The notes beneath the pieces were generated by a model. It was not told the origin of the DNA. It did no database searches and saw only the letters and a list, made by a program, of their open reading frames with translations. A program made the position numbers and the translations under genes. From positions 186,001 through 250,000 of the forward strand of contig JANQAE010000002.1 in assembly GCA_024707225.1 (NCBI GenBank): a stretch of DNA of 64,000 nucleotides. The letters run 5' to 3'. This DNA is from Dokdonella sp. Lineage in GTDB: Bacteria; Pseudomonadota; Gammaproteobacteria; Xanthomonadales; Rhodanobacteraceae. Within the stretch, counting starts at the first letter, position 1; each line of letters starts with the position of its first letter. Shown here piece after piece: positions 7,534 through 61,318 of the stretch.

Positions 7534-7541
7534 CGCTCGGG

Positions 7542-7571
7542 CCGCACGCCGCGCTCGTGCGCGGCGTGCGG
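7542..7571. terminator. 13-bp hairpin between convergent genes
   Basis: CCGCACGCCGCGC and GCGCGGCGTGCGG pair perfectly around a TCGT loop, 9 nt after the stop of the hydrolase gene. It is symmetric and lies between convergent genes, so it could act on both strands. There is no T-run after it, so it is either a Rho-assisted or 3'-end-stabilising structure rather than a classical intrinsic terminator. Confidence 0.6.
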
Positions 7572-7666
7572 GTCGGGACCTCTGCCTCTACCTCTCTGTC
7601 TCGGGTGCGGGTCGGCGCTGCAAGCCGTGAGGCCGCGCGCGGGCGCGACGGCCTCGGACTCCAGCG

Positions 7667-8608
7667 TCAGCCGCCTTGCGTCCGTAACAGATGTGCCTGC
7701 AGATGGATCCAGGCCACGCGCAGCAGTGGCACCGCCACGCCGAACGCATCGGCACGATGCACGAGGTCGCCGACGATGTGGGCCGCCTCGATCGGCTGAG
7801 CCGACTCGAGGTCGCGCAGCATCGAGGCGGTCAGCGGCGAGCGCGGCTGCACCAGCGCATTGAGCGCGGTGGTCTGGACCGCCTCGGCAATCGGCTGGCC
7901 GGCCGCGGCGGCGACCGCGACGCACTCGGCGTAGAGCGCGCGCATGAACGCATCGCCGCCGTCGGTCGCGACGATCACGCCGATGCTCGCGCGCATCAGG
8001 CAGGTGCCGGCCGCGAGCGCGGCCAGGAACGAATACTTGACCCACATCTCGTGCGCGATGTCGCGCGCGAGCACGGTGTCGAACGCGGCCGGCGCGAAGG
8101 CCTCGGCGATCGCGCGGCAGCGCGCGCTGTCCGGATCGCCGCTGCGCTCGCCGAACGTGACCGACGCGACCGGACCCAGATGCAGGATCTCGCCGTCGGG
8201 CCCCTTGGCGGCGCTGATGAAGCACAGGCCGCCGAGTACGCGCTCCGCGCCGAAGCGGCGATCGAGCGCCAGGTAGTGCAGCAGCCCGTTCAACAGAGGC
8301 AGCACCGCGGCACCGGCCTCGACGGCCGGCGCGATCGCGTCCATCGAGCCGTCCAGGTCGTAGGCCTTGCAGCTCAGCAGGACCAGATCGTAGCCGCGCG
8401 CGGCGCCGCCGGCCAGCTGATCCTGGGTCACGCAGCGGACCGCCAGGTCCGCATCGCCGGCGGCCGGGCTGCGGATGCGCAGGCCGCGCTCGGCCAGATC
8501 GCGCGCGCGCGCCGGCCGCACCAGGAAGGTCACGTCGGCACCGGCCTGCGCGAGCCGGCCGCCGAAATAGCCGCCGGTCCCGCCGGCTCCGAGTACGAGC
8601 ATCTTCAT
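7667..8608 (-). CDS. panE: 2-dehydropantoate 2-reductase family (ketopantoate reductase)
   Basis: 313 residues. The N-terminal Rossmann motif is MLVLGAGGTGGYFGG, followed by VLLSCKAYDLDGSM and LLNGLLHYLALDRRFG, the ApbA/PanE pattern. The catalytic Lys is in AHEMWVKYSFLAALAAGTCL. These enzymes reduce ketopantoate with NADPH in pantothenate synthesis. Many bacteria carry paralogues with other keto-acid substrates, so panE is probable but not certain. MKMLVLG starts at 8608 with AGAGGA upstream. No other pantothenate genes are nearby. Confidence 0.82.
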   Translation of the reverse strand: MKMLVLGAGGTGGYFGGRLAQAGADVTFLVRPARARDLAERGLRIRSPAAGDADLAVRCVTQDQLAGGAARGYDLVLLSCKAYDLDGSMDAIAPAVEAGAAVLPLLNGLLHYLALDRRFGAERVLGGLCFISAAKGPDGEILHLGPVASVTFGERSGDPDSARCRAIAEAFAPAAFDTVLARDIAHEMWVKYSFLAALAAGTCLMRASIGVIVATDGGDAFMRALYAECVAVAAAAGQPIAEAVQTTALNALVQPRSPLTASMLRDLESAQPIEAAHIVGDLVHRADAFGVAVPLLRVAWIHLQAHLLRTQGG

Positions 8609-8706
8609 CGTTCGAACGTCCTCTGCGCCGTGCGCGCGATCGCTTCCCCGCCCGCCCGCAGCATAGCGAGCGCTCCGCTGCGCTGCCACGGCGGCGAGAT
8701 CGGGGC

Positions 8707-8905
8707 GTCTCGAACCCCTGCCGGAAGCGGTCGGCTTCCCGCGTGGTCTTGCGGACGTCGCCGTGCAGAGGCTCGGCGTAGGCCTGGCGGCACGGCAGCT
8801 GGTTCTTGATCGATCCGATCGCGATCGCGTCGAGGCTGTGCTCGAGGAACAGTGCCTGGCCGTGAGCGTGACCCGTCTCGTAGCGTGCGCTCGAGCTGCA
8901 CCTTG
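8707..8905 (-). pseudogene. Degenerate coding remnant in an otherwise empty interval
   Basis: The 8609-9101 interval has no intact gene. In one minus-strand frame it reads ARYETGHAHGQALFLEHSLD, then AIAIGSIKNQLPCRQAYAEP and DVRKTTREADRFRQGFETP. This has the strong third-position G/C bias and balanced composition of a real protein, but no plausible start, and it runs into low-quality sequence at both ends. It looks like the surviving middle of a decayed gene. I do not recognise the family. The rest of the interval shows nothing. Confidence 0.35.
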
Positions 8906-9101: not shown

Positions 9102-9506
9102 TCACTTGATCGGGTAGGTCTCGACGGCGCCCTGTGCCGGCTCGGCCGGTCGCGTCGCCGGCTGCGCGACGGCCGCGCCGCAGCGATACGCGGCCCAGCT
9201 CTGCGCACCGTCGCGCGGGTCGCCGAGCGGCCGGATCGTGTCCGCGCCGAGGCCGGCGGCCTCGTTGCGGGCCATGACCTCGAGTTCGTCGCGGACCTTG
9301 AGGTTGCTGCGGTCGACCGGGCCGACGCGGTCGAGCACCGAGACGGTCACCTTGCCGCGCTCGGCGCAGCCGGCGACGTCGCCGTTCCAGGCGACGCGCA
9401 CGTTGCGCCCGGCCGAGTCGAGCTTGATGCCCCAGCTGCAGCCGGCCAGCACCGCGCCGCCGATCAACGCGGCCGCGAGATGCAGGCCGGACATACGGAT
9501 CTTCAT
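9102..9506 (-). CDS. DUF4156-like lipoprotein
   Basis: 134 residues. MKIRMSGLHLAAALIGGAVLAGC ends in lipobox LAGC. The mature protein has a conserved-looking VAGCAERGKVTVSVLDRVG stretch and NEAAGLGADTIRPL, which resembles small DUF4156 envelope lipoproteins (GC-x-x-G-x-V, then LGADT). No biochemical function is known for that family. A second Cys pair (VAGC and YRCG) could form a disulfide. A good Shine-Dalgarno (GGAGAA) precedes the ATG. It lies just after the M16 protease gene on the same strand with a 61-bp gap, so co-transcription is possible. Confidence 0.7.
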   Translation of the reverse strand: MKIRMSGLHLAAALIGGAVLAGCSWGIKLDSAGRNVRVAWNGDVAGCAERGKVTVSVLDRVGPVDRSNLKVRDELEVMARNEAAGLGADTIRPLGDPRDGAQSWAAYRCGAAVAQPATRPAEPAQGAVETYPIK

Positions 9507-9567
9507 CGGGTTCTCCGCGGGAAACGCTGCGGCGCCGCCCGGACGGGCGGCGCCGCAGACGGCCGAT

Positions 9568-12408
9568 TCAGCGTAGCACCTTGCCGTCGGCGTCGATGAC
9601 CTTGACCTCGCCGAGCTTCAGGTCGCGGACAGGCTGCTCGATCTTCGACAGATCGCCGACGATGACCCAGGTCAGCGCGTCGGCGCGGTACAGCGCCTGG
9701 GCGGCCGCCCGCACCTTGGCGTCGTCGAGGCCTTCGAGCTTGGTCTTCAGCGTCGGCACGTAGTCGTCCGGACGGCCGTAGAGCTGGTTGCTCGCGAGCG
9801 CGCCGAGCACGCTGCTGGTCGCCTCGTACGCGCCCGGCAGCGCGCGCACGCGCTGTTCCTTGATCTTGCCGATCTCGGCATCGGTCAGCGGCTTGTCGCC
9901 GGCGATCTGGCGCACTTCCTTGAGCACCTCGGCGGCCGACTCGGCGGTCTTGTCGGTCTGCACCGAGGCCACCATCATCAGCGGCCGCTGGCCGATCGCA
10001 TCCTGGATGATGCTCGACGCGCCGTAGGCCCAGCGCTTGTCCTCGCGCAGGTTCATGTTGAGGCGCGAGGTGAAGGTGCCGCCGAACGCGCCGTTCGCGG
10101 TCTGCACCTGCAGGTAGTCCGGCGCACGCGTCGACGGCGCCAGCAGGCCGGCCAGGATCAGCGACTGCGGCGAGTCCTTGCGGTCGATCAGGAACACGCG
10201 CGGCTTGGACTGCGGTGCCACCTCGGCGACGTTCTTCTTCGGCACCGCGCCGGCCGGGGCCTGCCAGTCGCCGAACACCCGATCGAGCTGCGGGATGATC
10301 GCCTCGAGCGTGGTGTCGCCGGCGACCAGGATGCGTGCATTGTCGGGGCGGTAGAAGTCGCGGTGGAACGCGGCCAGATCCTCGGCCGTCAGCGCGCCGA
10401 TCGCCGCCTCGGTGCCGCTGCCGGTGAACGGAATGCCGTAGGCATGGTCGCTGCCGTACAGCAGCGGCGGCAGCGTGCGCATCGCCAGGCTGTTGGGCTG
10501 CGTCTTCTCCTGGGCGATGCCGGCCAGCCACTGCGCGCGGATGCGGTCGATGTCGGTCTGACGGAATGCCGGATTGCGCACGACGTCGGCAAACAGCGCG
10601 AGCGAGGGCTCGAGCTGGTCGTTGAGCGCATTGAGGCCGATCGACGAGCTGTCCAGGCCGGCACCGCCGCCGATGCGTGCGCCCAGGCGCTCCTTGCGCT
10701 TGGCGATCTCGACCGAATCGAGTGCGCGCGTGCCCTCGTCGAGCATCGCCGCGGTGAAGCTGGCGGTGCCGAGCTTGCGGCCGAGATCGGCCGCGTAGCC
10801 GGCATCGAACTGCAGCTGGATCTGCGTGACCGGAATCGTGTGGCGCTCGGCCAGGATCACCTCGATGCCGTTCTTGAGCTTGCCGCGCTGCACCTTCGGG
10901 AAGCTCAGATCCGGGAACGCCGTGACCTCGGGCAGGCCCTTGCTGCGATCGAGCGTCGAGGCGACCGTGCGGAACTCGCCGGCCGGCGCGCGTTTCGCGG
11001 CCGGCTTGCCGTCGGCGGCCGGTAGGCCCTTGACCGCCGCGCTCTCGGCGGCGAGATCGGTGTCCGGCTTGGCCGGCAGCACGGTCAGCGTGTAGTCGCC
11101 GCGCGCGAGCCAGCGGCCGGCCGCGGCCTTGACGCTGTCGGCTGTCGCCGCAGCGATGCGCGCCAGATCGGTCTTGTAGGCGGCCGGATCGCCGCGGTAG
11201 ACCTGGCCCTCGGCCAGGATCGTGGCCTTGCCGCCGAAGCCGCCGACCTTCTCGAGGCCGCGCACGAAGCTCGAGGTGACGCCGGTCTTGGCGCGCGCGA
11301 GCTCGTCCTCGGTCGGGCCCTCGGCCAGGAACTTGGCCCATTCCTCGGCGATGATGTCCTCGACGCGGGCGGGCTCCACGCCGTTCTTGACGTCGGCGCT
11401 CAGCACGAACAGGCCGGCCAGATTGAAGGTCTGCGCGCTGACCGAGACGTCGTCGACCAGCTTGTCCTGGTAGACCAGGCGCTGGTACAGCCGCGAGGTC
11501 TTGCCGCCGCCGAGCGCGGAGGCCGCCAGTTCGAGCAGCGGCGCATCGGCGTCGGCCAGTCCCGGCGTGTTCCAGCTGCGGTAGACGCGGGTCTGCGCGA
11601 CGTGGTCGTGCTGGATGCCGCGCGTCGACGCCGTGCGCGGCGCGGTCCACGGCTGCTGACGCGGCACCGGCTGGCCCGGCGCGATGTCGCCGAAGAACTT
11701 CAGCGCCTTCTCGCGCGCGATCTCCGGCGTGATGTCGCCGGCGATCACCAGCGTGGTGTTGGTCGCGCCGTAGTAGTCGCGGAACCACTGCTTGACGTCG
11801 TCGAGCGAGGCTGCCTCGAGGTCGGCCATCGAGCCGATCGTGTTGTGCTGGTACGGATGGTTGGCCGGGAACGAGTTCAGCAGCAGATTCTCGTAGACGC
11901 GGCCGTACGGGCGGTTCTCGCCCTGGCGCTTCTCGTTCTGCACGACGCCGCGCTGGGTGTCGAGCTCGGCCTGCCCGATCGCGCCGAGCAGGTGGCCCAT
12001 GCGGTCCGATTCCATCCACAGCGCCATGTCGAGCGCGGTCGTCGGAACGGTCTGGAAGTAATTGGTGCGGTCGAACCAGGTCGTGCCGTTCATGTCGGTC
12101 GCGCCGACGCGCTCGAATGGCTCGAAATAGGTGCCCTTGCGGTGCTCGGAGCCGGAGAACATCAGATGCTCGAACAGATGCGCGAAACCGGTCTTGCCGG
12201 CCGGCTCGTCGGCCGAGCCGACGTGGTACCAGACGCTGACCGCGACGACCGGTGCCTTGTGGTCCTCGTTGACGACGACGGTCAGGCCGTTGGGCAGCGT
12301 GAAGCGCGTATAGGGGATGTCGATCACGTCGGTTCCCGGGTTGGCGGACGCGGCGAGGCTCGCCGCCAGCAGGCCGGCGACGATGGCGGGGCGAAACGGT
12401 TTGAGCAT
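9568..12408 (-). CDS. Periplasmic M16 (pitrilysin/insulinase) zinc peptidase
   Basis: 946 residues with signal peptide (MLKPFRPAIVAGLLAASLAASA). It has two M16 modules. The first carries the inverted zinc motif HLFEH at 77-81 inside KTGFAHLFEHLMFSGSEHRK, with the third ligand Glu in RGVVQNEKRQGENRPYG. The second half (about 510-900) repeats the fold without the motif, as in inactive partner domains. The size fits two-domain M16B/pitrilysin enzymes of the periplasm, which degrade short peptides. The start is followed by a clean export signal. The substrate is unknown. Confidence 0.9.
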   Translation of the reverse strand: MLKPFRPAIVAGLLAASLAASANPGTDVIDIPYTRFTLPNGLTVVVNEDHKAPVVAVSVWYHVGSADEPAGKTGFAHLFEHLMFSGSEHRKGTYFEPFERVGATDMNGTTWFDRTNYFQTVPTTALDMALWMESDRMGHLLGAIGQAELDTQRGVVQNEKRQGENRPYGRVYENLLLNSFPANHPYQHNTIGSMADLEAASLDDVKQWFRDYYGATNTTLVIAGDITPEIAREKALKFFGDIAPGQPVPRQQPWTAPRTASTRGIQHDHVAQTRVYRSWNTPGLADADAPLLELAASALGGGKTSRLYQRLVYQDKLVDDVSVSAQTFNLAGLFVLSADVKNGVEPARVEDIIAEEWAKFLAEGPTEDELARAKTGVTSSFVRGLEKVGGFGGKATILAEGQVYRGDPAAYKTDLARIAAATADSVKAAAGRWLARGDYTLTVLPAKPDTDLAAESAAVKGLPAADGKPAAKRAPAGEFRTVASTLDRSKGLPEVTAFPDLSFPKVQRGKLKNGIEVILAERHTIPVTQIQLQFDAGYAADLGRKLGTASFTAAMLDEGTRALDSVEIAKRKERLGARIGGGAGLDSSSIGLNALNDQLEPSLALFADVVRNPAFRQTDIDRIRAQWLAGIAQEKTQPNSLAMRTLPPLLYGSDHAYGIPFTGSGTEAAIGALTAEDLAAFHRDFYRPDNARILVAGDTTLEAIIPQLDRVFGDWQAPAGAVPKKNVAEVAPQSKPRVFLIDRKDSPQSLILAGLLAPSTRAPDYLQVQTANGAFGGTFTSRLNMNLREDKRWAYGASSIIQDAIGQRPLMMVASVQTDKTAESAAEVLKEVRQIAGDKPLTDAEIGKIKEQRVRALPGAYEATSSVLGALASNQLYGRPDDYVPTLKTKLEGLDDAKVRAAAQALYRADALTWVIVGDLSKIEQPVRDLKLGEVKVIDADGKVLR

Positions 12409-49484: not shown

Positions 49485-51866
49485 TCAATCGAATCCGTTC
49501 TGGAAGATCGCCTCGGTGCGGCCGGTGCCCGACAGCGGCAGCTCGGCGCCGACGCCCTGGTCGGTCATGACCATCAGCGTTTCGTTCTGCGGGCCCGGCC
49601 CGATCGGCGCGAAGCGCACCTCGACCGTGCAGCTTTCGCCGGGGCCGAGCATCGGCATGCACAGCATGCCGTCGGCCTGGAACCACGGCAGCACCATGAA
49701 GTTGGAGATCGGCGCAAAACCGCTGCCGGTGTTGCGCAGCGTCACCGTGCGCGTCGCCGTGGTGCCGGTGGCGACGGCGCCGAAGTCCAGGCTCGCCGGC
49801 TCGAACACCAAAGCGGCCGGCTGACCGTTGCCCGAGCCGGTGCCCGAAACCGGAATCTGCGCGATCGCACCCTGCGCGGTCGTCAGCGTGATCGTCGCGC
49901 TGGCGGGGCCCTGCGCGCCCGGCGTGAATTCCAGATCCACCACGCAGACCTGGCCGGCCTGCAGCCACGGACATTCGGTCTCGGACGAGACGCGGAACGC
50001 CGGGTCGGACGAGGAGAAATCCAGATCGGTCAGCAGGCTCGCGCCGACGTTGCGCAACTGCACCATGCGGCGGCCGATGCCACCGACCGGCGTCTGGCCG
50101 AAGTCGACGCTGCTCTCGACGAATCGAACGGCCGGCTCGCGCAGCACGCCGCGGCCTGACAGGCCGATGTCGACCTCGATGACCGGACTCGGACTGGAGA
50201 TGTGCAGTCTCGTCGAGACCGGTGTCACCGCGATCGGCGCATAGCGCACCGTGATCGGGCAGCTCGCGCCGGCGGCGATGAAGTCGCAGGCGGTCGCGTC
50301 GACCAGGAAGCCCGGCGCGTCCGTGTAGACCATCACGAACATCGCCGAGGCGCCGCCGGTATTGGTCACCGTGAACGTGCGCGGTGCGCTGGTCGTGCCG
50401 ATGTCGACGGCGCCGAAGTCGAGCGCGTCCTCCGATACGGTCGCGCCCTGCGGCGGCGGCACCGCCGTGCCGAGCACATTCAGATGCGCGGTCGCGCCTT
50501 CGAGGGTGCTGACGCCCCAGCGGTCGGCGAGCGCTCCGGCCGTGCCGGGCGCATAGCTCAGGACGATCGGGCAGCCCGCACCCGGTGCCAGCGTCACGTC
50601 GCAGGCGCTGGTGTCGGCACTGACGCCGGAGGGCGGCGCGGTGAACGCCAGACCGGTCGCGGCACGCGCGCCGGCATTCTCGAGCGTCACCGTACGCGTC
50701 GCGAGGCTGCCGGTGCGGACCATCTGGAAGTCGACGTCGGCCGGCGAGAAGCGCAGCCGGTCCGGCACCGGATCGCGCAGCGCGACCTTGATGACCTGGC
50801 CCGGCACGTCGACCGTACCGGCATACGCATAGTCGCCGCTGCGATCGAGCGCGAGACTCAGCAGCGGGCTGTCGTCACCGTCCAGCACCAGCGAGTCGGC
50901 GACCGCGAACGTCGTCAGGTTTACCTTGAGCAGGCGCGCCGGCTTGGTCGCGGTGCCGAAATAGGCAAAGGTGCCGGCCGCGTCGATCGCGGCCGCGCCC
51001 AGACCGATCGAGTCGATGCCCATGTGCAGCACCGGGCCCGGCTGGAACGTCGCCAGATCCACCTTGGCCACGTACGGCGCGAAGTTTGGGTTGGAATACG
51101 TGCCGAAGTACGCGGCCGAGCCGTCCGGCGCCATCACCGCCGAGCGGAAGCCGACGACGTGGGGCGGGAACGTGATCATGCCGGCCCACTGGAACGTCGC
51201 CAGATCGATCCGCGCGACGTTGGCCGGCGCGGTCAGCGTGCCGAGGTAGAGGTAGCGGCCGGAAGGATCGATCGTCGCCGACTGCAGGAAATTCAGGCCC
51301 GTCTGCAGATGGCCGACGACCTGCAGCGTCACCAGATCGATCTTGTCGACGCCGCCCTCGTCGGAACTCGTATAGCCGTAGCGTCCCTGCGCATCGATCA
51401 CGAAGGTCTGCGGGTACTCGCCGATCTGGCCGGTGCCGGTCAGCTGCATCGTCGCGAGGTCGACCCTGGCGATCCGCGGGCCGGCGAGGCTCGAATAGAC
51501 CACGTACAGATGCTGACCGGACGGCGCGAGAACGCCGATCGCGCCGTCGGCCGAGTCCACGTCGGTGGCGTAGCTGATTTCGGCGACCGGCTCCAGCGTC
51601 GCCAGGTCGACCTTGATCAGCGGTGCGGGTCGCGTCGGCGTCGCGCTCGTGACGACATAGGCCCAGCGGCCGTCGCCGCTGAGCAGCACGCGCCGCGCAT
51701 GCGGAATGCCGGCGCCGACGTGGATGGCGTCGACGCGTTCCAGCGCGTGCGCGTCGCCACTGCCGAGCAGCGGCGTCAGCAACGTCAGCGCCAGCAACAG
51801 GAGGCCGCCGCGCCAGACGCGCTGCGCCGCGCCTGCGGTCAGCCTTCGAATGAGTATCGTGTGCAT
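49485..51866 (-). CDS. Secreted seven-bladed propeller plus four ASH-type domains, IF-x-x-GF tail
   Basis: 793 residues. Signal segment (GGLLLLALTLLTPLLGSGDA), then about seven YVTN/WD40-like blades with recurring K/R-V/I-DLAT (IKVDLATLEPVAEI, ARVDLATMQLTG, DKIDLVTLQVVG, ARIDLATFQWAG, AKVDLATFQPGP, LKVNLTTFAVAD). From residue about 400 follow four HYDIN/ASH-type 95-residue domains (VDFQMVRTGSLATRTVTLEN, LDFGAVDIGTTSAPRTFTV, VDFGQTPVGGIGRRMVQLR, LDFGAVATGTTATRTVTLR), each with a Cys pair. It ends GTGRTEAIFQNGFD, a tail shared with the RCC1 protein. Probably exported, ligand-binding or adhesive. GGGAG precedes ATG 51866. Confidence 0.85.
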   Translation of the reverse strand: MHTILIRRLTAGAAQRVWRGGLLLLALTLLTPLLGSGDAHALERVDAIHVGAGIPHARRVLLSGDGRWAYVVTSATPTRPAPLIKVDLATLEPVAEISYATDVDSADGAIGVLAPSGQHLYVVYSSLAGPRIARVDLATMQLTGTGQIGEYPQTFVIDAQGRYGYTSSDEGGVDKIDLVTLQVVGHLQTGLNFLQSATIDPSGRYLYLGTLTAPANVARIDLATFQWAGMITFPPHVVGFRSAVMAPDGSAAYFGTYSNPNFAPYVAKVDLATFQPGPVLHMGIDSIGLGAAAIDAAGTFAYFGTATKPARLLKVNLTTFAVADSLVLDGDDSPLLSLALDRSGDYAYAGTVDVPGQVIKVALRDPVPDRLRFSPADVDFQMVRTGSLATRTVTLENAGARAATGLAFTAPPSGVSADTSACDVTLAPGAGCPIVLSYAPGTAGALADRWGVSTLEGATAHLNVLGTAVPPPQGATVSEDALDFGAVDIGTTSAPRTFTVTNTGGASAMFVMVYTDAPGFLVDATACDFIAAGASCPITVRYAPIAVTPVSTRLHISSPSPVIEVDIGLSGRGVLREPAVRFVESSVDFGQTPVGGIGRRMVQLRNVGASLLTDLDFSSSDPAFRVSSETECPWLQAGQVCVVDLEFTPGAQGPASATITLTTAQGAIAQIPVSGTGSGNGQPAALVFEPASLDFGAVATGTTATRTVTLRNTGSGFAPISNFMVLPWFQADGMLCMPMLGPGESCTVEVRFAPIGPGPQNETLMVMTDQGVGAELPLSGTGRTEAIFQNGFD

Positions 51867-52044
51867 GAGGTCTCCCGGGGAGCGACGATGAGGCATTCCG
51901 TGACAGGACGGAATGCGGACGTGACCGGCGGCCGACAGGTCGCGCCGATCGAGTGTGGAAGTACCGCCGCCGCGCCGACAAGCGGCCGCGGCGCCGTGTT
52001 GGCGCCACGGCGCCGATGCGCCATGCGGGCAGCGTGCGCTGCGT

Positions 52045-53076
52045 TCATGCGCCGGGCGTGCCGCCGGCGCGCTGTGCGGCGAGCCAGCCGGCCTGGAACC
52101 GCGTCCGCGCGCCGAGCCGCTTCATCAGAGCGCCGATTCGCCGGTCCAGCGTGCGCGGCGACAGACCGAGCGCGGCCGCGGTGGTCTTGTCGTTGGAACC
52201 GGCCGCCAGCCGCGTCAGCAGCTGCTGCTCGGTATCGAGCGCGCTGCGCGGATCGGCGCCGGTCGCGGTCAGGTCCGCGACCGACAGCGGCGCGGCCTGT
52301 CGCCAGAGCAGGTCGAAGTAGTCGCGCAGCGCCTCGAGCAGCGAAGACGTGCGCAGCAGCAGCACCGGTCCGCCGAGCGCCTCCAGCCGCATCGGGATCA
52401 GCGCCGCGCTGCCGTCGACGATCAGCAGCTTCAGCGACAGGCCCGAGCCTACGCGCACCTCGGCACCGGCCTCGACGCAGGCGCGCACGCGCTCGAGTAC
52501 GCCGGGCGCATCGAACGCCTCCGCATCGATCAGCGTGCGATAGGCGACGCCGCGCGCAAGGCCCTCGATCTCGGCCGGATCGACCGTATGCGGCGGACCG
52601 GTGACGTACGGCGGCTTGTCCAGGCACAGGCATTCGGCCTGCGCGCCGCGCTGCATCTCGGCGATCGTGCGGCGGACGCGGTCCTCGTCGTCGAGTACCT
52701 CGATCGCGTCGTCGCCGGGCGCGACGCGGAACGTCGCCGGGCGGAACTCCTCGATCAGCGCGGCGGCCGCGGCGCCGGCGCGCGCCAGTGCATCGGTCTG
52801 GCGGCGGATCAGCGCTTCGAGCACGAGGTCGGGCGGCACCGCGCGGTAGCGCCGCGGCCGCTGCCGCGAGATCGTGATCAGGCCCTTGGCCGAAAGCTCT
52901 TCGAGCAGGCCGCGCACGCGCGCCGCCGGCACGGCCAGGCGCGCGGCCAGTTCCGGCGCCGAGGCGCCGGTGCTGCGCAGCAGGAGCCGATAGGCCTGCT
53001 CGGCGGCTGCGCCGAGGCCGAGCACCTCGAGCGCCGGAGACGGCGGCCGATTCTCGGCGGCGATCGATTCGGACAT
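52045..53076 (-). CDS. TrmB/LuxR-like two-HTH transcriptional regulator
   Basis: 343 residues. The N-terminal winged helix (AEQAYRLLLRSTGASAPELA, RVRGLLEELSAKGLITISRQ) is of TrmB type. A central domain (about 110-260) reads EVLDDEDRVRRTIAEMQR and contains ECLCLDKPPYVTGPP. The C-terminal helix-turn-helix is LuxR-like: SNDKTTAAALGLSPRTLDRR, IGALMKRLGARTRFQAG. This two-HTH arrangement recalls TrmB-family regulators with LuxR-type tails. Co-directional with the secreted propeller/ASH gene 178 bp downstream, which it may control. Ligand unknown. Confidence 0.82.
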   Translation of the reverse strand: MSESIAAENRPPSPALEVLGLGAAAEQAYRLLLRSTGASAPELAARLAVPAARVRGLLEELSAKGLITISRQRPRRYRAVPPDLVLEALIRRQTDALARAGAAAAALIEEFRPATFRVAPGDDAIEVLDDEDRVRRTIAEMQRGAQAECLCLDKPPYVTGPPHTVDPAEIEGLARGVAYRTLIDAEAFDAPGVLERVRACVEAGAEVRVGSGLSLKLLIVDGSAALIPMRLEALGGPVLLLRTSSLLEALRDYFDLLWRQAAPLSVADLTATGADPRSALDTEQQLLTRLAAGSNDKTTAAALGLSPRTLDRRIGALMKRLGARTRFQAGWLAAQRAGGTPGA

Positions 53077-53410: not shown

Positions 53411-55808
53411 TCAGCGCGGTCCCGGGAATTCGCGCAGCGCCGGATCGATGGTGCGCTCGGCGGCCAGTGCGTCGGCGCGGTCGAGCGCGGCCTGCCAGGC
53501 GGCGTGTTGGCGCGTGGCGAGGTAGAGCCGCACCTCGAGCACGGCGGCGTCGTAGTTGCGGTAGGTGACGTCGCCGAGCAGGCCGACGATCTCGGCGGCG
53601 CGGTCGGTGTCGCCGTGTTCGATCAGCCACGGCACGTAGCACTCGGCGATGCGCAGGCGGTCCCACGGCACCAGGTCCGGCGTCGCCTGCGCAGCCTCGA
53701 ACGCCGCGCGTGCAGCCTCGGCATCGCCGCGCGCGATCGCGACGAGGGCATCGGCGACGTGCCCGTAGGCGGCGACCGCCCGGCTCGGCGCGGCCTGGAC
53801 GAACGCGCCGAGCGCCGCGGCGGTGCGCTGCGCGGCCGCGACGTCGTGGCCGGCCTGCAGACGCACCAGCAGCAGATGGGTCAGCGCGACGTGGCGCGGA
53901 TCCTCGTCGGGGTCGAACAGGTGCTCGATCGCCAGCGCGGCCTCACGCTCGGCACGACCGTTCTCGCCGGACGCGGCGCGGCACGCGCGGCCAGTGCATG
54001 CGCGAAATAAATGTTGAGGCGATCGTCCTCGTCGAGGATCTGCCGGTACGGCTGCGTGATCAGGGCGACCGCATCTGCGATGCGCCCGTTGTCGAGCAGC
54101 ACGTCGGCGCGTGCCAGCTTCATCGACGCGCGCATGCCGGGGTGTTCGATGCGCGCGTCGAGCTCGCGCATGCGCGGCTCCTGCGTCAGCGCGGCCTGCG
54201 GCTCGGCCATCAGGGTCCAGGCGGCCGCCAGATGGCTGCGGATCACACCTTCGTGCCAGGCCTCGTGGAACGCCTGCAGACGGTCGGCGGCGCGCGACAG
54301 CACCGGCACGCTCTCGGCCAGGCGCCCGGCGCGGCGCAGCACGACGCCGACCTGGGCGTCGGTGCGCGTCACGCCGAGCCAGTCGCCGCTGGCGGCGAGC
54401 AGCACGCGGGCGCGTGCGTACTCGGCCAGGCTCTGCTCGTAGCGGCCTTCGGAGCTCGCGAGCACGCCGAGCTCGCGCCAGGCGCGGCCGAGTTCGTTGG
54501 TGCCGTAGGCGCGTCCCTGCAGCAGATCGATGGTCTGCCGCGCATGGCGCTCGACCTCGGCGAACTCGCGGCGCTGGTAATGCACCTGGGTCAGCGCGTT
54601 CAGCACGCGCGCGCGCATCACGACCTCATCGGGACCGTGCAACTGCGCGATCAGCGCTTCGAAGCGGCCCTGCGCCGCATCGAAGCGGCCGGTCGTGTAT
54701 TCCATGCGACCGAGTTCGTAGGCGAGCTCGACCGAGTCGGGATGGCGCCGCTGCGCCTCGTCGAGCAGGACGCGCGCCGCCTCGGGCTTGCCGTCCAGAT
54801 ACGCGGCCTGCGCCTGCTTGAGCACGACCGCCAGCACCGGATCGGATGGGCCGCTCGGCACGAACGTCGCCGCACCGGCGCCGGCCAGCAGGCGGTCGGC
54901 CGCGTCGCGCGCCGCGTCGAGCACCTGGTCGTGCTCGGCCGATACGCCGAGCCGGATCGGCGTGTCGCCGTGGACGATCGTCAGCTCGACGCGCCAGCGC
55001 GCGCCGACCGCCTCGACGCGCGGCTGCACGATCCAGTTCGCGCCGGCCGTCTCGGCCAGGTCGGCCCATGCGGCCGCATCCAGATGCGCGACGTCGCGGC
55101 CGCGGGTCAGGGCCACGCTGTTGTCGCTGGGAATCGTCGTCCGGCCCGAGCCGTCGAGCCGTTCGGCGACCAGCGCCATCACGCCGAGCCGCAGCCAGGC
55201 CTGCCCATCGGCGGGCTCGACGATCGCCGGCAGTACCAGCGCCGGACGTTGCGCGAGCGGCACCGAGGCCGGTGTGGTGCCGGCTGCCGGCACGATCGCA
55301 TCGGTATCGGTCCGGCGCCAGATCAGCATCGCCACCGCCACGATCGCGACCGCGCCGATCGCGGCCGCGAATACGCCGGACGAGGACCGGCGCGGGCGTG
55401 CCGGGGCTTGCATGGCCGCGCTCGGATCCGCGGGGGCGGCGGCATCTGGACGGCTACGGACGACGCACGCTCCGCCGGCTCCGGATCGGCGATGCGCGTC
55501 TCCGCGACCCAGTGGTAGCCGAATCCCGGAATCGTGCGGATCACGCGCTGCTCGTCGCCGTCGTCGTCGAGCAGCTTGCGCGTGCGCGCGAGCAGCTGAG
55601 CCAGCACGTTGTCGCCGACTTCGGTCTGGTTCCAGACCGCGGCGATCAGCTCGTCGCGACCCACCGCCCGCGCGCGCTGCTCGATCAGGTGCAGCACGCA
55701 GTCGAAGACGCGGGCCGGCAGCACGCTGACGCTGCCGTCGGGACGCCACAGCTGGCGCGTCGCCGCCGACAATCGGAATCCGTCGAATTCGTAGATGCGC
55801 CCGGCCAT
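53411..55808 (-). CDS. CadC-like winged-helix regulator with TPR-like array, two frameshifts in this sequence
   Basis: About 800 residues when repaired. The N-terminal OmpR-type winged helix is RIYEFDGFRLSAATRQLWRP, QTEVGDNVLAQLLARTRKLL, RVIRTIPGFGYHWVAETRIA. The frame slips near 55425-55440 (a base lost in the C-run of CCGCCCCCGCGG) into a membrane span (SGVFAAAIGAVAIVAVAMLI). The periplasmic part has a TolB/FlgO-like region (ERLDGSGRTTIPSDNSVALT) and many TPR-like helices (AAYLDGKPEAARVLLDEAQ, NELGRAWRELGVLASSEGRY). It slips again near 53971-53985 and continues RLQAGHDVAAAQRTAAALGA. Second of three wHTH membrane regulators. Target unknown. Confidence 0.78.
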
Positions 55809-56110: not shown

Positions 56111-58849
56111 TCAGTCGCGCTGGGCTTCGGCGAGCAGCTCGCCGATCTCCTCGAGCATTGCGCGGTCCGCACCGCTGCGCTCGAGCGCGTCGCGGCTGGC
56201 CTGCAGCAGCGCCACACCCTCGGCGCGGCGGCCGAGCCGTGCCAGCACCACGCCGCGCGTCGCATCGAGCCGTTCGCGCCAGCCGGCGCTGCCGCCGCCG
56301 GCCTGCAACGCATCCGGCGACAGTCCGTCGAGCTGTTCCAGCGCAGCGGCATGGTCGCCGCTCTGGGTCAGGGCCTGGGCGAGGAAGAAGCGGAAGTTCT
56401 GCGATGCGCCGTGCGCGGCGCCGTAGCGCTCGCGCAGCCTGCGCTCGGCATCGCGGACATGGGCCAGACCCTGTGCGGTCTGGCCGCAGTAGTACTCCTT
56501 GTAGCCGAGATTGCCGACCTCGATCAGCAGCGTCGGACTGTCGTCCGGCCCGGTCCGCCGCATCCGCTCGACGACTTCGCGCGCCGCTTGAAGTGCCGGC
56601 GCACACTGCTCGAGCTCGGCGTGGATGCTGGCGACCGTGCTCAGCGCGACCAGGGTCGTGCGATGGTCCGGTCCCAGCGTCGCTTCGTAGGCGGCCAGGC
56701 CATCGCGTGCCTCGCTCAGTGCCTCGGCATGCCGGCCCTGCTGGCGCAGGATCCGCGACAGCAGCAGATGATCGGCGGCGGCGTGGACGCGGCCGTTCCG
56801 CGACGCGCCCAGCAGCGGATCCTGGCGCAGCGCGCGCACGCGCCGCTCGGCGTCGGCGGCGCGGCCGAGCCGCAGCTCGGCATCGGCGAGGCTGGTGCGG
56901 ATGTGCCGCCCCAGCGGCGCGTCCTGCGGAGTCACCGCGCGCTGCAGCCGATCGGCCGTGGCGAAGGCCGCATGCATCGGTTCGGCCTGCAGCCGGTACA
57001 GATGGTAGGCGCCGCGCGCGAGCGCGGCCTGCAGCGCGGTCTCGCCGCCGGCATCGAGCAGGGCGCCGGCGTCGCGATCGGCGCCGTCGAGTGCGGCCGC
57101 GGCGTCCTCGGACCGGCCGAGCACGGCCAGCAGCGGCACCTGCGCGTAGCGCGCGCGCAGGCTCGCCGGATCGGCGCGGCCGCGCTGCGATACATAGAGC
57201 GCCTCGGCGCGCAGCAGATGATCGAGCGCGGACTGATGACGTGCCAGGCCGCGATAGGTGCGCGCCAGTGCCTCGTGCACGCCGGCCTCGGTCAGTGGCG
57301 CATCGGCGAAGCGATCGGCGAGACCGGCCGATGCGCGGTCGATCAGGTCGGCGATGCTGGTCTCGGCGGGCACGTCGGCCAGCTCCGGATTGGCGCCGCC
57401 GAGCACATCGTCGTTGAGAAAGGCCTGGATCGCGGCCGACCGCGCGCTCTCGCGCTCGGCATCGAACCGCGCGCGGTCGGCTGCGCGGTACTGCCACGCG
57501 CTGAGCGCGAAGCCGAGCGCCAGCACGGCCAGCGCGATGCCGATCCACGGCCGCCGCGCGCGCGCGCGATCGAGGGCGGCGACGGCATCGCGCGCCCGTG
57601 CCTCGGCCGCCTCGACGCGTTGTCGCTCGGCGCGCCGCGCGTCGAGACGGCGCAGCCGGTCGATCAGTTCGCTGACGCTGCCGAGCCGGCGCTCCGGCAC
57701 GCCGTCGGTCGCCAGCGCGATGTCCTCGACCAGCAGCGGATCGCCGACGTCGCGTTCCCAGCCCGGCGCCAGCGGCCGGCGCAGATCGCCGACGACGAGC
57801 TGATACAGCACGATGCCGAGCGCGTAGAGGTCGCTCTGCACGGTCGGCGTGCGGCCGTCGAACAATTCCGGCGCGAGGTAGACGAGCGTGCCCGAGCGCG
57901 CGTCGGCGGCGAGGTCGTGCGCCGACAGCGTCAGGCCGAGCGCGGTGATGCCGAGCGCGGCCAGACGGTCCGGATCGAGCAGGCGTCCGCTGCCGAAGTC
58001 GGTCAGGCGCACCTGCCAGCCGCCGCTGCCGTCGGCCTCGACCAGTACGTTGGCCGGCTTGAGATCCTTGTGCAGCACGCCGACGCCGTGCGCGGCGGCG
58101 ACGGCCTGGGCGATGCACACGAAGAACGCGACGCGCTCGGCCGTCGACCAGTGGCTCGGCACCGATTCCTCGGCGGCCCAGTCGATCAGGTTGCGTCCGG
58201 CGTATGCGGATTCGAGGAAGAACGGTTCCGCGTGGAAGTGCCAGTCGATCACGCGGACCAGGTCGTCGCGCTCGCCGAGGCCCTGGCGCAGCACGCGCGA
58301 CAGCGTCGCCTCGCGCTTGAGCGCGGCCAGCCGCTCGCCGTCGAGCGCGAACTTGTAGACGCGCCGCTCGCCGGTCTTGCCGTGGCGCGCCAGCCAGATC
58401 TCGTTGCCGGCGGTGCGGCCGAGCTGCCGTTCCAGCCGGAAATGCTCGCGCGAGGGCACGCGCTGGCCGGCCGCCAGTGCCAGTTCGCTGGCGAGCCGGC
58501 GGCCGGCGGCGATGCGCTCGACCGGGCCGGTCAGGCGATAGCCGACGCGCGGCACGGTGCGGATCTGGACGCCGGCGGTCTCGCCGATCGCGCGGCGCAG
58601 CTTGCCGACCGCGGTCGCCAGGACGTGATCGACCGTGACGCGGCCGGCCCAGACCGCGTCGAACAGCTCGTGCTTGGTGACGACCTCGCCGGCATGACGC
58701 AGCAGCAGCGCCAGCACCTGCAGCGGCTTGTGCTCGATCGCCGCAGCCGCGCCGGCGACGTGCAGCGTCAGGCGGCTCTCGTCGAACTCGCAGCTGCCGA
58801 AGCGCCATCGGTACAGCGGCGCGTCGGGTGTCGCGACAGCGTCGGCCAT
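56111..58849 (-). CDS. Winged-helix DNA-binding / Ser-Thr kinase / TPR membrane fusion
   Basis: 912 residues. An OmpR/CadC-type winged helix (about 12-108: SRLTLHVAGAAAAIEHKPLQ, FDAVWAGRVTVDHVLATAVG, IRTVPRVGYRLTGPVER). A Hanks-type kinase (about 137-400): degenerate Gly loop LGRTAGNEIWLA, Lys166 in VYKFA, Glu in LKREATLS, catalytic VLHKDLKPANVLV (HKD 260-262, Asn267), DFG at 284-286, YLAPELF (APE 326-328). One span (about 435-452). Then 460 residues of TPR-like helices. All core catalytic residues are present, so it is probably active. Divergent from the RCC1 protein gene. DNA-binding and kinase domains in one chain is unusual. Confidence 0.9.
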   Translation of the reverse strand: MADAVATPDAPLYRWRFGSCEFDESRLTLHVAGAAAAIEHKPLQVLALLLRHAGEVVTKHELFDAVWAGRVTVDHVLATAVGKLRRAIGETAGVQIRTVPRVGYRLTGPVERIAAGRRLASELALAAGQRVPSREHFRLERQLGRTAGNEIWLARHGKTGERRVYKFALDGERLAALKREATLSRVLRQGLGERDDLVRVIDWHFHAEPFFLESAYAGRNLIDWAAEESVPSHWSTAERVAFFVCIAQAVAAAHGVGVLHKDLKPANVLVEADGSGGWQVRLTDFGSGRLLDPDRLAALGITALGLTLSAHDLAADARSGTLVYLAPELFDGRTPTVQSDLYALGIVLYQLVVGDLRRPLAPGWERDVGDPLLVEDIALATDGVPERRLGSVSELIDRLRRLDARRAERQRVEAAEARARDAVAALDRARARRPWIGIALAVLALGFALSAWQYRAADRARFDAERESARSAAIQAFLNDDVLGGANPELADVPAETSIADLIDRASAGLADRFADAPLTEAGVHEALARTYRGLARHQSALDHLLRAEALYVSQRGRADPASLRARYAQVPLLAVLGRSEDAAAALDGADRDAGALLDAGGETALQAALARGAYHLYRLQAEPMHAAFATADRLQRAVTPQDAPLGRHIRTSLADAELRLGRAADAERRVRALRQDPLLGASRNGRVHAAADHLLLSRILRQQGRHAEALSEARDGLAAYEATLGPDHRTTLVALSTVASIHAELEQCAPALQAAREVVERMRRTGPDDSPTLLIEVGNLGYKEYYCGQTAQGLAHVRDAERRLRERYGAAHGASQNFRFFLAQALTQSGDHAAALEQLDGLSPDALQAGGGSAGWRERLDATRGVVLARLGRRAEGVALLQASRDALERSGADRAMLEEIGELLAEAQRD

Positions 58850-59035
58850 GCGTCGGCCCGTGCCCCGTCGATCGGTCGAAGACCGCCGATCTTAGCGCGT
58901 AGCCATGCCTTGAAGGTTTCTTGAAGACCGCGTGAGGACGCCACGGGCGGTCTGGCCGAGCATCCGGGGCTGGCGGGGCTCGCGTGATCCGGGGGCCGCA
59001 CTCGCCATCTTTTTCTCGCATCTGGAGCAGCACAC

Positions 59036-61318
59036 ATGGGCCTTTCGGGCATTGCCGGCGTCTTCGTGCGCATCGGTCTTCTCTTTCTCGTCCTGATGCA
59101 GCCGGGCTGGACCGCGGCCGCGACGCTGTCGGCCGGCGGCGATCACAGCTGCGCGATCGATGCCGGTGACGGCGCGCTGCGTTGCTGGGGCCGTGGCCAG
59201 CTCGGCCAGCTCGGCAACGGACTGACGGTCCACCATGCCGCGCCGAGCCGCGTGGCCGGCGGGGAGACGCTGCACGCGGTCGCCTCCGGCGGCAGCCACA
59301 GCTGCGGTCTGACCCCGTCCGGCGGCGTGCGCTGCTGGGGCGACAATGCCTCGGGCCAGCTCGGCGACGGCAGCACGCTGTTCCGGCCGGCGCCGACGCC
59401 GGTGAGCGGCCTCGGATCGGGCGTGATCGCGCTCGCGCTCGGCACCGCGCACAGCTGCGCGCTGCTGCAGAGCGGCCAGGTGCAGTGCTGGGGCGAGAGC
59501 GACGACGGCCGCCTCGGCAGCGGCCACACCTCCGACCAGACCGCGCCCAATACGGTGATCGGGCTGGCCGGCGCCACCGCGATCAGCGCCGGCGGCGAAC
59601 ACACCTGCGCGCTGCTCGGCGGCGGCGGCGTGGCCTGCTGGGGCGCCAATGCCAGCGGCCAGCTCGGCGATGGCAGCTGGACCGCCCGCACCACGCCGGT
59701 GGCCGCCGCGGTCGGCCAGCCGGTGCAGGCGATCGCGGCCGGCGGCATGCATACCTGCGCGCTCGGCAGCGGCGGCGCGGTGCTTTGCTGGGGCCGCAAC
59801 GTGTCCGGCCAGCTCGGCGACGGCACCGGCACCAACCGCAATCTGCCGGTCGTCGCCGACGGTCTGGCCGGCGGCGCGACGCGGCTGGCGGCCGGCGGTG
59901 CGCACAGCTGCGCGCTGGCCGCGGGTGCCCAGCTGCGCTGCTGGGGCTACAACAACTACGGCCAGCTCGGCGACGGCACTACCGCCAGCGCGAACCGTCC
60001 GGTCGCGGTCGCCGGCCTGTCCGGACCCGTGCTCGAGCTCGCCGCCGGCACCGACCATACCTGCGTGCGCGGCAGCGCCAATGCGATCCGCTGCTGGGGC
60101 AGCACCGAATACGGCAAGGGCGGCTACGGCGACACCAGCTGGGGCAACCTCGGCTACAGCACGCGGCCGCAGCCGATCGGCGGTCTGCCGATGCCGGCCG
60201 CCGCGCTGTCGCTGCGCGCGCGCAACGGCTGCGCGACGACGGTCGAGGGTGGCGCCGCCTGCTGGGGCTCCAATGTCTACGGCCAGGTCGGCGACGGCAT
60301 GACCAGCGGCAGCGGCAACGGCGTCGACCAGGCCGGTCCGCGCGCGGTCGCGGGGCTCGAAGTAGGCGTGCGCGCGGTCGCGGCCGGCGAGCATCACGCC
60401 TGTGCGGTGCGCAGCGACGGCAGCGTCTGGTGCTGGGGCCGCAACCAGTACGGCCAGGTCGCCGACGGCACCACGATCACACGGCGCACGCCGGTCCGCG
60501 TCGCCGGGCTCGACGATACGGTCGCGATCGCCGCCGGCCTGTCCTTCAGCTGCGCGCTCGACGCCGGCGGCGGCGTGCGGTGCTGGGGCCGCAACCAGGT
60601 CGGCCAGCTCGGTGACGGCAGCCTCGTCGACCGCAATGCGCCGACGCCGGTCGCCGGCCTGTCGAGCGGGGTCGTCGTGCTCAGTCTCGGCCAGCAGCAT
60701 GCCTGCGCGCGGCTCGCCGACGGCACGCTGCGCTGCTGGGGGCGCAACAACCGCGGCCAGGTCGGTGACGGCAGCACGACCGACCGGCTGATCCCGACCG
60801 CAGTCGCCGATGCCGGTGTCGCCTACGCGGCCGTCCACGCCGGCGGCGAGCACAGCTGTGGACTGACGACCGGCGGACAGGTCCGCTGCTGGGGCTACAA
60901 CAGCAGCGGCCAGATCGGCGACGGCACGGTGACGACGCGGCCGCTGCCGACCGGCGTCGACGGACTGGCCGCCGGCGTCACTGCGCTCGCGGTCGGCGAC
61001 TACCACGGCTGCGCGCTGCGCGGCGACGGCCAGGCCGTGTGCTGGGGCTACAACAACCGCTACCAGCTCGGCGACGGCAGCACGACGACGCGGCGGCTGC
61101 CGGTGGCCGTGCTCGGCCTCGACGCGCCGGTCGCCGCGCTGCGGCTCGGCGAAGAGACCAGCTGCGCCACGCACGTCGACGGCCGCACGCGCTGCTGGGG
61201 CAACGGTGCCTACGGCCAGCTCGGCAATGGCGCGATCGACCGCTACTGGAGCGAGCCGGTCGAGATCGCGCGCTGGACGCGCAGCGACCGCATCTTCGCG
61301 TACGGCTTCGAGCCCTGA
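59036..61318 (+). CDS. Secreted 14-repeat RCC1-like double propeller, IF-x-x-GF tail
   Basis: 760 residues. Signal segment IGLLFLVLMQPGWTAAA. Fourteen RCC1-type repeats of about 50 residues, each with HSCAL-type and CWG-x-N-x-x-GQLGDG motifs (for example RCWGDNASGQLGDG, LCWGRNVSGQLGDG, RCWGRNQVGQLGDG). Fourteen blades make two complete seven-bladed propellers, and the paired Cys of each blade could form disulfides outside the cytoplasm. The C-terminus RSDRIFAYGFEP shares the IF-x-x-GF tail. GGAG lies 8 nt before the ATG. RCC1 propellers bind proteins; the role here is unknown. Divergent from the kinase-fusion gene. Confidence 0.9.
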   Translation: MGLSGIAGVFVRIGLLFLVLMQPGWTAAATLSAGGDHSCAIDAGDGALRCWGRGQLGQLGNGLTVHHAAPSRVAGGETLHAVASGGSHSCGLTPSGGVRCWGDNASGQLGDGSTLFRPAPTPVSGLGSGVIALALGTAHSCALLQSGQVQCWGESDDGRLGSGHTSDQTAPNTVIGLAGATAISAGGEHTCALLGGGGVACWGANASGQLGDGSWTARTTPVAAAVGQPVQAIAAGGMHTCALGSGGAVLCWGRNVSGQLGDGTGTNRNLPVVADGLAGGATRLAAGGAHSCALAAGAQLRCWGYNNYGQLGDGTTASANRPVAVAGLSGPVLELAAGTDHTCVRGSANAIRCWGSTEYGKGGYGDTSWGNLGYSTRPQPIGGLPMPAAALSLRARNGCATTVEGGAACWGSNVYGQVGDGMTSGSGNGVDQAGPRAVAGLEVGVRAVAAGEHHACAVRSDGSVWCWGRNQYGQVADGTTITRRTPVRVAGLDDTVAIAAGLSFSCALDAGGGVRCWGRNQVGQLGDGSLVDRNAPTPVAGLSSGVVVLSLGQQHACARLADGTLRCWGRNNRGQVGDGSTTDRLIPTAVADAGVAYAAVHAGGEHSCGLTTGGQVRCWGYNSSGQIGDGTVTTRPLPTGVDGLAAGVTALAVGDYHGCALRGDGQAVCWGYNNRYQLGDGSTTTRRLPVAVLGLDAPVAALRLGEETSCATHVDGRTRCWGNGAYGQLGNGAIDRYWSEPVEIARWTRSDRIFAYGFEP

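Follow-up and report, generated by a model that had tools for sequence, protein, structure and literature searches.

The question raised by this locus is what a Ser/Thr kinase does inside a membrane-bound transcriptional regulator. One gene of the window (the whole stretch of 64,000 nucleotides of Dokdonella sp. DNA analysed here) encodes a protein in which an OmpR/CadC-type winged helix (the head), a Hanks-type Ser/Thr kinase, one membrane span and TPR-like helices follow one another along the chain (Table 1). Since the head, the kinase and a probable sensor arm are joined in one protein, a signal from outside could become both phosphorylation and gene control in a single molecule. It is argued below that the protein is probably a CadC/ToxR-type one-component membrane regulator with an active internal Ser/Thr kinase, whose operator serves its own gene and the divergent one and whose occupancy of that operator is changed by phosphorylation. 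A first-pass annotation of this DNA can be kept in part, namely in its architecture and in the place it proposed for a binding site, but not in the meaning it gave to the Gly-rich loop and the HKD motif, nor in what it generalised about PASTA and NHL kinases.

Table 1. Features of the kinase-regulator locus, in positions of the window.
Feature	Position	Strand	Basis or remark
912-aa protein gene	56111..58849	-	winged helix, Ser/Thr kinase, membrane span and TPR-like arm
OmpR/CadC-type winged helix, residues 14-108	58526..58810	-	Pfam Trans_reg_C; CadC head 5ju7; model
Recognition helix, residues 74-88, including His75 and Thr79	58586..58630	-	model; covariation with half-sites
Hanks-type kinase domain, residues 126-405	57635..58474	-	Pfam Pkinase; catalytic residues; fold
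Thr302 codon, candidate autophosphorylation site in activation loop	57944..57946	-	conserved Thr/Ser; putative phosphorylation
Membrane span, residues 433-455	57485..57553	-	hydropathy; span at same place in 50 of 56 rows
TPR-like helical arm, residues 499-911	56117..57355	-	Pfam TPR_12 and TPR_10; model
Predicted operator TTCAAGAAACCTTCAAG, two half-sites 11 bp apart	58909..58925	-	tandem-repeat search
Predicted operator with third in-phase half-site CTCACG, upstream side	58909..58936	-	half-site phase search
Divergent gene of 760-aa RCC1-repeat protein, probable signal sequence	59036..61318	+	Pfam; proposed target

Domain architecture and known systems

Domain search and structure prediction confirm the first-pass annotation in that a single chain holds a head of the DNA-binding type, a complete kinase, a membrane span and TPR-like repeats. 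The AlphaFold model of the protein has a mean pLDDT of 90, the winged helix scores 52.5 bits against the Pfam cut-off of 26.2 and aligns with the solved CadC head 5ju7 (E 1.9e-10), and kinases fill the matches listed in a structure search against solved folds. Lys and Arg are more numerous before the span than after it in 50 of the 56 aligned rows, a bias that would agree with a C-terminal arm outside the cytoplasm. Pfam gave no match in the 912 residues for a receiver domain, for a BTAD domain behind the winged helix (the mark of AfsR/SARP) or for PASTA repeats, and the score against the PASTA kinase (PknB/Stk1) family was 69 bits, the cut-off being 450.

CadC/ToxR-like regulators have the same N-terminal OmpR-type winged helix, one span and a C-terminal sensor part, whereas in the window protein a Ser/Thr kinase of about 280 residues separates the head from the span; a survey of such regulators covers histidine-kinase hybrids and, in the available part of its text, no Ser/Thr kinase (PMC10269533). 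With Hanks-type kinases (PknB/Stk1 and others) the protein shares the kinase fold and the catalytic residues, and single-span bacterial Ser/Thr kinases are reported to be common (PMC1262709), but it differs from PknB/Stk1 in its N-terminal winged helix, its HKD motif, its degenerate Gly-rich loop and the lack of a PASTA match. It had been claimed in the first-pass annotation that bacterial kinases are limited to PASTA or NHL sensors and have no DNA-binding partner. This is too narrow: the same genome has other kinase ORFs that match into the TPR part, and M. tuberculosis is already on record with a kinase that is fused to a MalT-like region (PMC1262709). That protein likewise has a kinase and a regulator-type region in one chain, but there the kinase is N-terminal and its partner MalT-like, whereas here the OmpR-type head comes first and the span and TPR arm come after. 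We take the M. tuberculosis protein to be PknK.

No description of a Ser/Thr kinase inside an OmpR-type membrane regulator was found in the open-licence PMC literature, as far as its text was available, including the available parts of PMC1262709, PMC2877116, PMC4601284, PMC10269533, PMC3973317 and PMC5430869; the architecture may be listed elsewhere, since subscription papers, supplements and InterPro lie beyond such a search. The divergent arrangement and the 11-bp tandem repeat described below are new findings on this architecture.

Distribution of the family

A search of its own genome (4.37 Mb in 4 contigs) with the protein gives 57 places at E<=0.001, which comprise itself, one further full-length copy (the paralogue, 44% identity) and partial matches, the latter mostly kinase ORFs, some reaching into the TPR part, or winged-helix ORFs. 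Matches at E<=1e-60 occur in 10 of 40 genomes of relatives and in 6 of 398 genomes of a phylum sample, its own included in both counts, and the combination of winged helix and kinase is therefore rare, yet no one-off. Among plasmids, 208 records match, none covering 80% of the query, and the ten matches listed hit the kinase part.

A scan of named genomes was guided by conserved peptides of the family itself and was limited to the best 80 of 514 stretches (79 loci), so that it is no census. Among 97 loci in all, 69 ORFs in 68 loci join a winged helix to a kinase; the 67 with a kinase match at E<1e-60 were used further, a set that includes the window (L001) and a duplicate (L018/L070), and the upstream regions were studied in 66 loci. 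The ORFs come from several proteobacterial groups and Acidobacteriota, with record titles that include Pseudoxanthomonas, Luteimonas, Rhodanobacter, Dokdonella, Hydrocarboniphaga, Rubrivivax, Mitsuaria, Hyphomonas, Sphingopyxis, Bowmanella and Acidobacteria.

Several variants were observed on the way. A contig titled Verrucomicrobia and a Nevskia MAG (L030, 5995-8742; L039, 5995-8742) have kinase motifs and a recognition helix much alike, and the former copy reflects either transfer or a misassigned contig. A Thalassolituus MAG (L047) has two winged-helix kinase genes in tandem on one strand (6001-8763 and 9119-11845). Two further proteins (L016, 604-3960, plus strand; L017, 1072-3573, minus strand), from two of the 10 matching genomes of relatives, have the winged helix, about 170 residues and then the same kinase and TPR repeats, and it is because of these additional residues that their match begins only at residue 125-126. 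Part of the extra stretch in L016 matches TIGR04510 weakly (39 of 400 bits), and it may thus be cyclase-like. The TIGR04510 domain ('putative peptide modification system cyclase') also fronts the same kind of kinase in four relatives without a winged helix (L072, L075, L077 and L079), with matches that span roughly one quarter of the model and fall short of its 400-bit cut-off, whereas the window protein has no TIGR04510.

Conservation of the kinase

Lys166, Glu180, Asp262, Asn267 and Asp284 are invariant in all 67 ORFs, and the window kinase has DFG and APE alongside the catalytic Lys, Glu, HxD Asp and Asn. Position 302 is Thr in 65 ORFs and Ser in the other two, and Thr or Ser in 56 of 56 aligned rows. 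The mean share of the commonest residue is 0.65 in the kinase, 0.66 in the head and 0.36-0.43 in the TPR stretches; the kinase is thus conserved like the head and more than the arm, a pattern that argues for catalysis.

Two features had been taken in the first-pass annotation as signs of atypical regulation of the window copy, namely the Gly-rich loop, where residues 144-149 read GRTAGN instead of GxGxxG, and the replacement of the Arg of HRD to give HKD. Both proved to be family-wide, the loop being degenerate in most, not all, of the 67 ORFs and HKD being present in 66 (HRD in one), so that neither marks the window copy as oddly regulated. The same two features would suit a pseudokinase, whose fold binds ATP or acts as a dimer module that relays from span to head with no phosphate transfer. 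Kinases without a GxGxxG loop can still be active, and the five invariant residues, together with the activation-loop Thr/Ser in every member, make a pseudokinase improbable.

Within the head, the best-conserved Ser/Thr positions are Thr58, which corresponds to Ser or Thr in 50 of 56 rows, and Thr98, which does so in 48 of 56, and both are weak candidates for phosphorylation of the head, as they may be kept for structural reasons. A role in anti-phage defence was also considered and rejected: the matches in PADLOC and NCBIfam are mostly to the generic kinase domain and remain far below the NCBIfam cut-offs, with 59 bits against 460 for the methylation-associated defence kinase MAD6.

A predicted operator upstream of the gene

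When the 250-bp upstream regions of the 66 loci were searched with no consensus assumed, an exact 6-mer repeated at a spacing of 11 was found in 28 of them. The corresponding count in 500 dinucleotide shuffles was 3.8 +/- 1.9 and never above 11, and the other spacings from 7 to 40 gave 1-9 regions; with similar regions removed, the repeat is present in 25 of 63. In the window the repeat is TTCAAGAAACCTTCAAG, which lies 59 bp before the start codon of the kinase-regulator gene. The suggestion of the first-pass annotation that a binding site is likely within 58850-59035 has accordingly gained a definite candidate at 58909-58925, with the tandem direct repeats about 11 bp apart of an OmpR/PhoB-type operator. 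A third in-phase half-site (at most one mismatch in 5) accompanies the pair in 22 of 34 loci, the background being 2.9% per place; it lies upstream in 12 and downstream in 11, with both in one locus.

Winged helix and tandem direct repeats are common to this protein and the PhoB/PhoP-type response regulators, and in M. tuberculosis the motifs bound by PhoP are 7 bp long and separated by a 4-bp spacer, which adds up to 11 bp (PMC4832192); the window protein differs from these in being membrane-bound, with a kinase in the same chain and no receiver domain found. It also differs from CadC, whose sites TTAxxxxT are reported to stand head to head (PMC5430869), whereas the half-sites here run head to tail.

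The predicted operator is nearly unique. TTCAAGAAACCTTCAAG has one exact copy in the 4.37 Mb genome, which at up to two mismatches contains this site and two weaker ones. The predicted operator of the paralogue differs (CGGTAACGAAGCGGTAACG), again with one exact copy, and its pattern gives 7 matches within two mismatches against 3 in the reversed control. The 17-mer of the window recurs upstream in L009, L019, L022, L031 and L035, and a one-base variant in L020, L021 and L023; the seven aligned proteins from these loci are only 43-52% identical to the window protein. Eight other genomes contain 10 sites within one mismatch, nine of which stand, by coordinate arithmetic, before a winged-helix kinase gene (one of them before a second copy in one genome, L109, apparently split over two frames); the remaining site is found some 1 kb away from the first one, before the next divergent lipoprotein gene of L031.

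These data bear on an alternative in which the protein is a kinase with a built-in autoregulator: the head would control no more than the levels of the protein and its neighbour, and the kinase would signal elsewhere and never to the head. An operator predicted before its own gene and a complete, conserved kinase would be expected here too, and binding by the head tells nothing about the substrates of the kinase. On the other hand, 67 ORFs keep the head fused to the kinase, and each of the nine genomes searched with the operator has a single copy of it or little more, which, indirectly, suits a private circuit better, and we regard the alternative as rather unlikely.

Recognition helix and half-sites

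The sequence of the half-sites follows two residues of the recognition helix. In a table of 34 loci, half-sites ending AAG go with Thr at residue 79 (15 of 15) and those ending ACG with Asn, once Gln (19 of 19). Residue 75 shows tendencies: His occurs with TTC, Lys with GTA, Asn mostly with CTA or TCA and Gly mostly with CTA or CTC. The two residues correspond, in the alignment to 5ju7, to CadC His66 and Gln70, which are among the sequence-specific contacts in a docking model reported to be backed by NMR and mutants (PMC5430869).

The table combines 21 of the 28 exact-repeat regions with 13 held-out loci within one mismatch; it omits L011 and L067 (repeat word not of class form), L059 (CGGTAA, shorter than the class form), L037 (CCTAACC, Asn79) and L046, L062 and L071 (other words; Lys, Asn and Lys at residue 79), and a 14th held-out locus within one mismatch, L058, is a tie between AAG and ACG. 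For the held-out loci the half-site form was drawn from the other loci, with a shuffled rate of 1.2-1.4% per class. The 38 held-out rows divide into Asn with ACG (13), AAG (2) or a tie (2), Thr with AAG (7) or a tie (5), and other residues (9); ties make up 11 of the 38, and the two Asn rows nearer AAG (L064 and L069) have at best 2 mismatches. On a careful tree residue 79 changes twice (2 pairs), each time together with the base, which is too few for phylogenetic significance of the link; a quick kinase tree gave five changes and one independent pair on starred branches, all concordant.

It could be objected that the head has no specific binding at all, that the repeat belongs to another regulator or a promoter and that the protein is a membrane kinase; 24 of the 66 upstream regions do lack both an exact repeat and any site within one mismatch. 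This is nevertheless very improbable, given that the half-sites follow the protein's own recognition-helix residues, that these align with positions reported for sequence-specific contacts of CadC, and that 18 of the places in the same genome with a winged-helix match only gave the spacing-11 repeat in 0 of 18 in the final tally (a 6-mer with this spacing did turn up for one alternative start of L121, and 5, 4 and 4 of the 18 had repeats at spacings 12, 14 and 16).

The divergent gene and its surroundings

In 40 of 50 loci the next gene upstream is transcribed divergently, in the other ten it is not; among control genes from the same stretches 78 of 330 have a divergent neighbour (Fisher p 1.8e-14). 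Genes were called for these counts with a simple codon-usage caller made for the analysis, and the 50 omit L039, L059 and L063, where the upstream gene is more than 1 kb away, and loci without a called upstream gene. In the window, position makes the RCC1-repeat gene the presumed regulatory target; its product counts as exported by a simpler signal-sequence rule, not by the crude rule used across the loci. That crude rule classes 22 of the 40 divergent proteins as exported and does so for 159 of 462 flank genes, a number in which the 40 are counted; the enrichment is modest. A single conserved target family was not found by Pfam in 45 proteins from the divergent side, which are products of the first and in some loci also the second gene and include two pieces of one gene: they hold 37 Pfam families, and of the 25 listed only OmpA, with three members, occurs more than once. 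The families represented include autotransporter, Cu/Zn SOD, Ig-like, cadherin-like and RCC1 domains as well as GGDEF and a Crp-like helix-turn-helix. A promoter and terminator scan of 58700-59200 was empty, with no sigma-70-like promoter between the two genes.

Other genes of the window deserve mention. Next downstream (53411-55808, minus strand) lies a CadC-like regulator with winged helix and TPR in different frames (parts at 55323-55808, 53881-55749 and 53411-53866), either a decayed gene or the product of assembly errors, and 52045-53076 (minus strand) encodes a 343-residue protein with an N-terminal TrmB-type helix-turn-helix and a weaker C-terminal LuxR-type (GerE) match. An 803-residue protein (49485-51896, minus strand) ends in IFQNGFD and the RCC1 protein in IFAYGFEP; the coding pattern for I-F-x-x-G-F-D/E with an immediate stop occurs 12 times in the genome and 0 times in the reversed control, and this ending is possibly a C-terminal sorting tag. 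In L108 (5614-7319, minus strand) the gene divergent from the paralogue appears split over two frames, and its last piece ends in LLAEGFD.

Proposed mechanism and significance

Computation shows the architecture, the conserved catalytic residues, the predicted operator with its near-uniqueness and the divergent arrangement; in the regulator with an active kinase that we favour, we infer the topology, kinase activity, phosphorylation targets, ligand and sign of regulation. The TPR arm, outside the cytoplasm, would sense a ligand or the state of the envelope, and the signal would cross the span to the kinase. The kinase would autophosphorylate, likely at Thr302, and would probably phosphorylate the head of its own complex, so that operator occupancy changes and phosphorylation gates DNA binding. 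Two or three heads would lie side by side on the tandem 11-bp operator between the gene and its divergent neighbour, and their binding would set transcription of the gene itself, of the divergent gene, often one for an exported protein, or of both. Extended to the family, and put forward here tentatively, this may amount to self-contained, mutually insulated circuits, each with a private operator chosen through a two-residue code and with an occupancy gated by phosphorylation of the head, by its own molecule or by a neighbour on the DNA.

For OmpR-type heads, the residue-base pairs offer a first step to a recognition code. The path from bacterial Ser/Thr kinases to transcription has mostly been studied with separate regulators as substrates; as kinase and DNA-binding domain are here in one chain, with a predicted, near-unique operator, a single protein and a single DNA fragment allow tests of sensing, phosphorylation and promoter binding, and the paralogue with its different operator in the same genome provides a natural control of specificity.
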